A DNA stretch of 49,905 nucleotides from a virus, in IMG/VR virus record IMGVR_UViG_3300046460_000405, positions 1 through 49,905 of that record; one strand, 5' to 3'. The stretch's first letter is position 1, and each line of letters starts with the position of its first letter. The notes under the pieces were generated by a model. It searched no databases, had not been told where the DNA came from, and saw only the letters and a list, made by a program, of their open reading frames with translations. Positions 33,801-40,483 of this stretch are shown piece by piece. The position numbers and the translations under genes are program-made.

Positions 33801-34136
33801 ATGATCGGGATGATCGGACTGGACCGCCGCACCGGCCAGCTCATTTCCGGCCTTGATCACCTGCGCCAGTCCATCGAGGACATTTTGTCGACGCCCTTGG
33901 GCAGCCGGCGCATGCGCCCGGAGTACGGCAGCAAGCTGCGACGCTTTGTCGACCTGCCGGTCAATGACGGCTGGAAGAGCGCTGTGCAGGCGGAAGTGGC
34001 CAGCACCCTCGGGCGTTGGGAGCCACGCCTGAAGCTGGGCCGCGTGCGCGCCGTGGCCATCCTCGACGGGCGCATCACATTTGAGCTGACCGGGCAGTAC
34101 CTGGGCAGCGACGTGACTTTGGAGGTGTCCGCATGA
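33801..34136 (+). CDS. Baseplate protein gpW (gp25 family)
   Basis: A 111-residue protein of the P2 gpW / T4 gp25 family: GLDRRTGQLISGLDHLRQSI, the EDILSTPLGSRRMRPEYGS motif that holds the sheath initiator fold, and RFVDLPVN. It forms the baseplate wedge and primes sheath assembly. ATG at 33801; stop overlaps the J gene. Confidence 0.88.
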   Translation: MIGMIGLDRRTGQLISGLDHLRQSIEDILSTPLGSRRMRPEYGSKLRRFVDLPVNDGWKSAVQAEVASTLGRWEPRLKLGRVRAVAILDGRITFELTGQYLGSDVTLEVSA

Positions 34137-38438: not shown

Positions 38439-39602
38439 ATGAGTTTCTTTCACGGTGTCACTGTGACCCTGGTGGACACCGGGGCGCGCCACATCGCCAC
38501 CCCGTCCGCGTCGATCATCGGCTTGTGTAACACCTTCACCGTGGGCCCGCCGGCCACAGCCGCTGCCAACGAATTGCTGCTGATCACCCGCGAAAGCGAA
38601 GCGGTCGCCGCCTGGGGGCCGGACGCGGCGATTACCCAGGACTGCAAGGCCATTTTCAAGCGGTCGAAGGCGGTGATTGTCGCCGTCGGTGTGCCGGTGC
38701 TGGACGATGATGCAGAACAACTGTCGGCGATCATTGGCGGCGTTTGGGCTGACGGCACCCGTACCGGCATGCAGGCGCTGCTGAACGGTAAAAGCAAGTT
38801 CAACGCCCAGCCGCGATTGTTGGTGACGCCGGGGTACTCGTCGACGCTGGCGGTCGCCACTGAGTTGGTTGCGCTGGGTGACAAGATGCGCGCCATGGCC
38901 CTCATCGACGGGCCGAACACTACCGACGAAGCCGCGATCGCCTATGCCGCCAACTTCGGCAGCAAACACGCCTACATGGTCGATCCGGGTGTGCAGTTCT
39001 GGGACACCGTGACCAGTGCCACGGTGAACGCGCCGGCGTCGGCCTGGACCGCCGGCCTGTTCGCCTGGACCGATGCCACCTACGGCTTCTGGGCCTCGCC
39101 ATCGAACAAGGAATTTGTCGGCATTACCGGCACCACACGGCCGATCGAGTTTCTCGATGGCGATGCGTCCTGCCGGGCCAACGTGCTGAACAACGCCAAC
39201 ATCACCACGATCATTCGTGATGACGGCTACCGCCTGTGGGGCAACCGCACGCTGTCCAGCGACCCGAAATGGAAGTTCGTTACCCGCGTGCGCACGTTGG
39301 ACATCGTCATGGACGCCATCCTTTACGCGCACAAGTGGGCCGTCGACCGCCCGATCACCGCAACCTACGTCAAGGACGTGACCGAAGGCCTTCAGGCGTT
39401 CATGCGCGACCTGAAGAATCAGGGCGCGATCATCAATTTCGAGGTGTACGCCGACGAGGAGCTGAACACCTCCAGCGAGCTGAGCGACGGCAAGGTGTAC
39501 TGGAACATCCGTTTCACCGACGTGCCGCCGGCCGAAAACCCGAACTTCCGCGTCGAGGTGACCGATCAGTGGATCACTGAAGTGCTGGACACCGCCGCCT
39601 AA
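38439..39602 (+). CDS. Tail sheath protein
   Basis: A 387-residue P2 FI-type contractile sheath protein: MSFFHGVTVTLVDTGARHIA, then SASIIGLCNTF and the long C-terminal domain (MDAILYAHKWAVDRPITATY, TEGLQAFMRDLKNQGAIINF) that forms the inner sheath layer. P2 FI has 396 residues, so this is complete. TGGAG precedes the ATG. The C-terminal third is repeated in the next gene. Confidence 0.92.
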   Translation: MSFFHGVTVTLVDTGARHIATPSASIIGLCNTFTVGPPATAAANELLLITRESEAVAAWGPDAAITQDCKAIFKRSKAVIVAVGVPVLDDDAEQLSAIIGGVWADGTRTGMQALLNGKSKFNAQPRLLVTPGYSSTLAVATELVALGDKMRAMALIDGPNTTDEAAIAYAANFGSKHAYMVDPGVQFWDTVTSATVNAPASAWTAGLFAWTDATYGFWASPSNKEFVGITGTTRPIEFLDGDASCRANVLNNANITTIIRDDGYRLWGNRTLSSDPKWKFVTRVRTLDIVMDAILYAHKWAVDRPITATYVKDVTEGLQAFMRDLKNQGAIINFEVYADEELNTSSELSDGKVYWNIRFTDVPPAENPNFRVEVTDQWITEVLDTAA

Positions 39603-39614
39603 GGAGGCCGCTGC

Positions 39615-39983
39615 ATGATTTTGCCCAAAGTGACCCTCAAGACCGACGAGTGCACCCGGTTGCGCCTGCTTGAGATCGTCAAGGACGCCATCCTCTATGC
39701 GCACAGATACGCGGTGGACTGGTCGATCACCACAACCTACGTCAAGGAAGTGACCGAAGGCCTGCAAGCGTTCATCGGCGGTCTGAAGAGCCAGGTCGCA
39801 ACCGTCAATGTCGAGGTCTACGCCGACGAAGAGCGGAACACCGCCAGCGCACTGAGCGCTGGCAAGGCGTATTGGATCGTCCGTTTCCCTGACTCGCTGC
39901 CAGCAGAGCAGTCCATCTACCGCATGGAGGTGATCTCCGAGTGGGTCCCGGTAGTGCTATCACCTGAAGAGGCTGACCAATGA
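39615..39983 (+). CDS. Mini-sheath: tube/sheath chimera, free C-terminal domain
   Basis: A 122-residue protein with a very strong ribosome binding site (AAGGAGG). Residues 2-12 (ILPKVTLKTDE) copy the tube protein's LTLPKLTLKTDE. From residue 17 it aligns over about 100 residues with the C-terminus of the sheath protein (IVKDAILYAHRYAVD, VTEGLQAF, VEVYADEE), more than half identical and without gaps. The order tube-start then sheath-end is what a tandem duplication from mid-sheath to early tube would create. Its frame is intact and it overlaps the tube start (ATGA), so it may be made. A role in sheath assembly or stop is possible; a recent useless copy is the alternative. Confidence 0.75.
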   Translation: MILPKVTLKTDECTRLRLLEIVKDAILYAHRYAVDWSITTTYVKEVTEGLQAFIGGLKSQVATVNVEVYADEERNTASALSAGKAYWIVRFPDSLPAEQSIYRMEVISEWVPVVLSPEEADQ

Positions 39984-40483
39984 TTCCTGAAGTGCTCTAC
40001 AACACCAACCTATTCGTCGACGGCATCAGCCTGCAAGGCGATGTACCGAGCCTGACCCTGCCCAAGCTGACCCTCAAAACCGATGAGTACCGCGCGGGCG
40101 GCATGGACGCGGCGGTCGAGCTCGACATGGGGATGGAAAAGCTCGAAGCCAGCTTCACCACCAGCGGCGTGCGTCGCGAGGTATTGAAGTTCTTCGGCCA
40201 GTCCGACCTGACCGGGTTCAACGCGTCGTTCCGCGGTGCCTTCAAGGGTCAGGGAGGTTTGACCAAGTCGGTGATCGCCACCGTGCGTGGCGGCCTGAAG
40301 GAGGTCGACCCGGGGGACTGGAAAACGGGCGACAAAGCCGAGTTCAAGTACGCCATCGCGGTGACCTATTACAAGCTGGAAATCGACAGCAGCGTGATGT
40401 TTGAAATCGATCCCCTCAACTCGATCCGCGTCATCGACGGCGTTGATCAACTGGCCGCCGTGCGGTCTGCCCTGGGCATGTAA
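39980..40483 (+). CDS. Tail tube protein
   Basis: A 167-residue P2 FII-type tube protein: MIPEVLYNTNLFVDGISLQG, then PKLTLKTDEYRAGGMDAAVE, ending DGVDQLAAVRSALGM. P2 FII has 172 residues. It stacks as hexamers inside the sheath. The start overlaps the mini-sheath stop. Confidence 0.92.
   Translation: MIPEVLYNTNLFVDGISLQGDVPSLTLPKLTLKTDEYRAGGMDAAVELDMGMEKLEASFTTSGVRREVLKFFGQSDLTGFNASFRGAFKGQGGLTKSVIATVRGGLKEVDPGDWKTGDKAEFKYAIAVTYYKLEIDSSVMFEIDPLNSIRVIDGVDQLAAVRSALGM

Follow-up and report, generated by a model that had tools for sequence, protein, structure and literature searches.

A tube-sheath chimeric gene between tail sheath and tube, probably a selected accessory gene of a temperate Pseudomonas phage group

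The DNA analyzed here, referred to as the window, is a 49,905-base virus record that holds integrase, terminase, portal and head-protease genes, and it is a temperate Pseudomonas-type phage with a P2-type tail operon. Identity as a tailocin instead of a phage is ruled out for the window, and for two isolates discussed below (L021 and L022), by the terminase, portal and head-protease genes. All features described lie on the + strand, and the R2 pyocin is the nearest solved structure for both the sheath and the tube. The 387 aa tail sheath gene (38439..39602) scores above the cut-off for PF04984 and PF17482, matches the R2 pyocin sheath PA0622 at E 9e-186, and is the parent of a duplicated C-terminal domain; the 167 aa tail tube gene (39980..40483) carries PF04985. 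The phage has its own gp25/gpW-type sheath initiator as a separate gene (33810..34136; PF04965, 63.5 bits), and a gpU-type gene is also present. Between sheath and tube stands a small gene of 122 aa with an ATG start (39615..39983), termed here the mini-sheath. A complete sheath stands upstream of it, ruling out a split sheath gene.

The first-pass annotation described this frame as a tube-sheath chimera, and alignment agrees: the ORF, sheath and tube lie where it placed them, and both parental parts were found. In the tube-derived start and tag (39615..39648), a 72-bp deletion has brought ATGATT up to tube codons 27-36, as seen against the tube of a close relative without the gene (L070); the opening residues of the protein, MILPKVTLKTDE, repeat tube residues 27-36 and are preceded by the ATGATT of the tube itself. 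The N-terminus MILPKVTLKTD thus consists of tube residues, and about 103 residues from the C-terminal domain of the sheath are joined to it. The sheath-derived part (39654..39962) copies sheath residues 282-384, which by alignment and the predicted model cover helices, a beta hairpin and the start of the C-arm; a gap-free alignment pairs mini-sheath residues 13-116 with the C-terminal domain of the window's sheath at 61-62% identity (E = 3.7e-38), in keeping with the roughly 100 gap-free residues first reported. Owing to the loss of 7 bp, translation then continues across the region of the duplicated ribosome-binding site and yields a new C-terminus (39963..39983), again from alignment with L070. 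The tube-derived segment replaces the N-terminal (handshake) arm of the sheath, and the PF04984 subtilisin-like domain, present in the window sheath, is missing from the mini-sheath. With PF17482, the window protein scores 25.3 bits against a curated cut-off of 26.9, and the L021 copy exceeds that cut-off at 41.7 bits; the PF04965 profile gave no match to the mini-sheath protein.

An AAGGAGG ribosome-binding site (39601..39607) lies ahead of the gene, and its stop and the tube start share 4 nt (ATGA), so that the intact frame, the strong site and the coupling to the tube gene noticed at first pass were all recovered. The same AAGGAGG precedes the tube in relatives lacking the mini-sheath, whereas in its bearers the tube has a weaker AAGAGG or AAAGAGG upstream; the tube's original strong ribosome-binding site now serves the mini-sheath gene.

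With L070 as the reference, the origin of the gene can be reconstructed by alignment. Duplicating in tandem the stretch between roughly sheath codon 281 and tube codon 36 would contribute 321 + 3 + 12 + 108 = 444 bases. A 72-base in-frame 5' deletion put ATGATT next to tube codon 27, and close to the 3' end the loss of 7 bases changed the frame, so that reading passes the former sheath stop, crosses the duplicated ribosome-binding site and ends at a mini-sheath stop (TGA) that has thereby moved into the tube start. The sheath-tube gap is 377 nt with the gene and 12 nt without it, and the difference of 365 equals 444-72-7, explaining all inserted bases. The duplication from mid-sheath into the tube proposed at first pass therefore stands as the origin, although it is insufficient alone as the two deletions are also needed. 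Both deletions are common to all copies, which indicates a single origin. Gene conversion homogenizing a mini-sheath with its own sheath was not seen, each mini-sheath being about as near to other sheaths as to its own. Origin by duplication and deletions, together with purifying selection on the product, is held with high confidence. The sheath-tube gap of a more distant relative (L181) is 118 nt, compared to the usual 11-48 nt.

Orthologues were found in Pseudomonas sp. GL-B-19 (L021), Pseudomonas sp. Irchel s3f7 (L022) and three near-identical viral contigs (L060, L061 and L063). All five are exactly 122 aa, 69-73% identical, intact and in the same position between sheath and tube; as five further records have the gene from start to stop at the same place, chance is excluded, and its presence in independent isolates as well as metagenomes rules out a sequencing or assembly artefact. 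The gene is absent, with a sheath-tube gap of 12 nt, from 28 close relatives whose sheaths are 94-100% identical; L070 lacks it with a sheath of 98.5% identity. None of the outcomes named in advance as pointing to a useless copy occurred: the gene is not missing from all relatives, as some have it even though most close ones lack it, every copy is intact, and the codons are under purifying selection, as described below. Among 399 Pseudomonas genomes searched, GL-B-19 alone had a separate copy of this kind, and a search of 294 genomes by start pattern returned the same two isolates only, GL-B-19 and Irchel s3f7; these collections hold one genome per species and gauge the frequency of the gene poorly.

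The suggestion that the gene has no known counterpart agrees with 63 annotated phage records, each with one sheath place and no second, and with a literature search in which the papers covered described no truncated or second sheath gene of this type. Candidates for other free sheath C-terminal domains were rejected: in a class sample, short frames of 113 and 143 aa are at contig starts and one of 183 aa is at a contig end, and two further loci are outside phage tail operons. In another gammaproteobacterial genome (G867; L196, 2577-2963), a free-standing 128-aa ORF matching PF17482 occurs in a chromosomal, non-tail setting; it is unrelated to the mini-sheath and possibly a remnant. A sheath C-terminal domain remnant of 87 aa (G341; L069, 3183-3446) has surface-sugar type genes next to it and no nearby tube gene.

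The distribution of the gene points to exchange between phages. In the sheath tree the bearers do not form one group (AU p = 3e-31), ruling out plain vertical inheritance with the sheath, and the tube tree shows a tendency in the same direction (AU p = 0.02). A single origin with scattered bearers implies either recombinational allele exchange or repeated clean loss. The head genes of L021 are those of the window, and those of L022 and L060 are different; the gene is therefore in at least two phage kinds. In records L198, L199 and L060, the tail module bearing the mini-sheath is joined to two head modules, one window-like (L021) and one distant (L022, L060), and this is head-tail module exchange.

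Across four distinct lineages, dS of the mini-sheath (0.23-0.47) falls in the same range as that of the sheath (0.26-0.48), and for this reason the gene is as old as its sheath group; its dN is about 10 times that of the sheath or more. The comparison of synonymous and non-synonymous changes with the sheath, called for at first pass, was made with a purpose-written maximum-likelihood codon model on four independent lineages, a small sample, and gave an omega of 0.36 (CI 0.26-0.52; LRT 23.8 against omega = 1), as expected for codons under purifying selection; the parental sheath domain has 0.014 and the tube 0.096. Due to recombination no single tree fits all sites, but two topologies gave similar omega values. 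Omega is 0.21 in the N-terminal half, made up of the tube tag and helices, and 0.49 in the C-terminal half, which by itself also rejects omega = 1. Variable residues number 1/11 in the tube-derived tag and 53/111 elsewhere. Positions 18, 23, 66, 100, 101 and 112 are invariant in the mini-sheath copies and hold residues absent from 136 sheaths, and variable columns do not track sheath conservation (27/61 vs 21/42). In a rough neutral simulation, all four frames stayed free of stops in 0.18% of runs (probability 0.0018). A recent useless duplication is ruled out by the age from dS, the intact frames in four lineages and omega below 1. Judged from these codon comparisons, the protein has been under purifying selection since its origin, far weaker than that on the sheath, and the mini-sheath is a selected accessory gene of a Pseudomonas temperate-phage group, not a useless copy.

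An AlphaFold model of the protein has moderate confidence (mean pLDDT 71.6), with residues 1-9 below 50 and disordered, helices at 12-35 and 42-60, and strands at 85-90 and 101-106. In a fold search with this model the first PDB matches were R2 pyocin sheaths, and T4 gp25 appeared at a non-significant E of 4.9. The protein is thus predicted, with moderate confidence, to keep the fold of the sheath C-terminal domain. In comparison with 136 sheaths, M322, R323 and K326 of the second long helix, presumed by position to be the tube-attachment helix, are near-invariant there and altered in the mini-sheath; of these, R323 (invariant in sheaths) and K326 (93%) are variable in the mini-sheath. The hairpin tip PPAENPNF, near-invariant in sheaths, is not kept, and the arm-holding hairpin lies within the less constrained C-terminal half. 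Divergence at the presumed attachment helix and the hairpin tip suggests that the mini-sheath does not join the sheath lattice as an ordinary subunit.

In contractile tails, the C-terminal hairpin of one sheath subunit receives an N-arm and a C-arm from two neighbouring subunits (PMC10329688, PMC10457771, PMC6088184), and sheath contacts are made by the inner domain only (PMC6088184). The mini-sheath resembles this domain (domain I, PF17482) in predicted fold, and about 103 of its residues align gap-free to PA0622 281-383 (E 3.3e-30); unlike the PA0622 sheath, it is a free protein without the subtilisin-like domain and N-arm, with a changed C-terminus and a tube-derived N-terminus. A comparison can also be made with initiators of the gp25/gpW/TssE type (PF04965), such as diffocin CD1370 and gp15 of XM1, the latter a free 117-aa protein that holds arms from two adjacent sheath subunits and is itself similar to the sheath C-terminal domain (PMC10457771). 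The mini-sheath would likewise be a small free protein, with the shape of the sheath C-terminal domain in its moderate-confidence model. In contrast to these initiators, it lacks a PF04965 match, descends from the sheath gene itself, and is dispensable, as most relatives are without it; the phage that bears it has its own gp25. The family phrog_16736 (101 positions, sheath C-terminal domain only) is matched by the mini-sheath at 5e-25, but the full sheath scores far higher (154 vs 88 bits), and pieces of sheaths probably make up the family. It is listed with an unknown function (window 39279-39602), and may comprise fragments of sheaths or additional free domains.

The role considered most likely, although tentatively, is that of an assembly factor which binds free sheath subunits. 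The mini-sheath would keep the domain for sheath-to-sheath binding without the N-terminal arm and outer domain of the sheath, and this reading was drawn because the inter-subunit binding domain is kept while those two parts are gone. It may bind newly made sheath subunits and modulate their polymerization around the tube as a chaperone-like or decoy partner, in which case its architecture would resemble a gp25-type initiator, the same plan arrived at from the sheath side. Counting against an assembly role are selection weaker than on the sheath, the many close relatives that manage without the gene, and the position of the hairpin in the less constrained half. The main rival, given a modest chance, is that the product is useless and the frame has stayed open because the essential tube is translated by coupling from it, with selection on amino acids merely keeping the product harmless. 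The tube start in the ATGA overlap with its weakened ribosome-binding site, the fast evolution and the variable columns that ignore sheath conservation would all fit this; yet coupling requires an open frame and not specific residues, while omega is well below 1, lowest in the N-terminal half, and six mini-sheath-specific residues are invariant. Omega below 1 argues against such entrenchment as the whole story.

The cap idea put forward at first pass, widened here to a structural cap or second initiator built as a ring of the free domain on one sheath end, is rather unlikely. It draws on gp25-type initiators, which are free, of about the same size and similar to the sheath C-terminal domain, and on collar proteins, which dock onto the last sheath hairpin (PMC10329688). 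The phage already has genes of the gp25 and gpU types, however, the hairpin tip is lost, and the less conserved hairpin half (omega 0.49 vs 0.21) weakens a simple cap reading. Tape-measure length is 781-786 aa in phages with the gene and 776-786 aa in those without; as there is no difference, nothing points to altered tail length, and an effect on tail length was rejected. A fragment of the phage's own sheath could also serve as a decoy by which sheath assembly, perhaps that of competing contractile phages or tailocins, is controlled or poisoned, with the gene spreading through the tail operon as a recombining presence/absence allele, though this seems improbable. In the strict form, which is very doubtful, the phage would tolerate its own fragment while the fragment poisons sheath assembly in a contractile phage or tailocin that co-infects or is co-induced: scattered presence on the sheath tree and fast evolution are as expected for a competition trait, and in a T6SS, mutant sheath subunits assemble together with wild-type ones and stop the system from working (PMC5797969), but L070, which has nearly the same sheath and no mini-sheath, shows no visible change for self-resistance.

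The locus offers a birth of a phage gene that is legible base by base, through duplication and fusion within a tail operon, with retention by selection. As the closest solved relative is the R2 pyocin, the mini-sheath is easy to test. Should its role lie in sheath assembly, it would show a free sheath inner domain serving in nature as a regulator, and would provide a concrete model for how gp25-type initiators may arise from the sheath.
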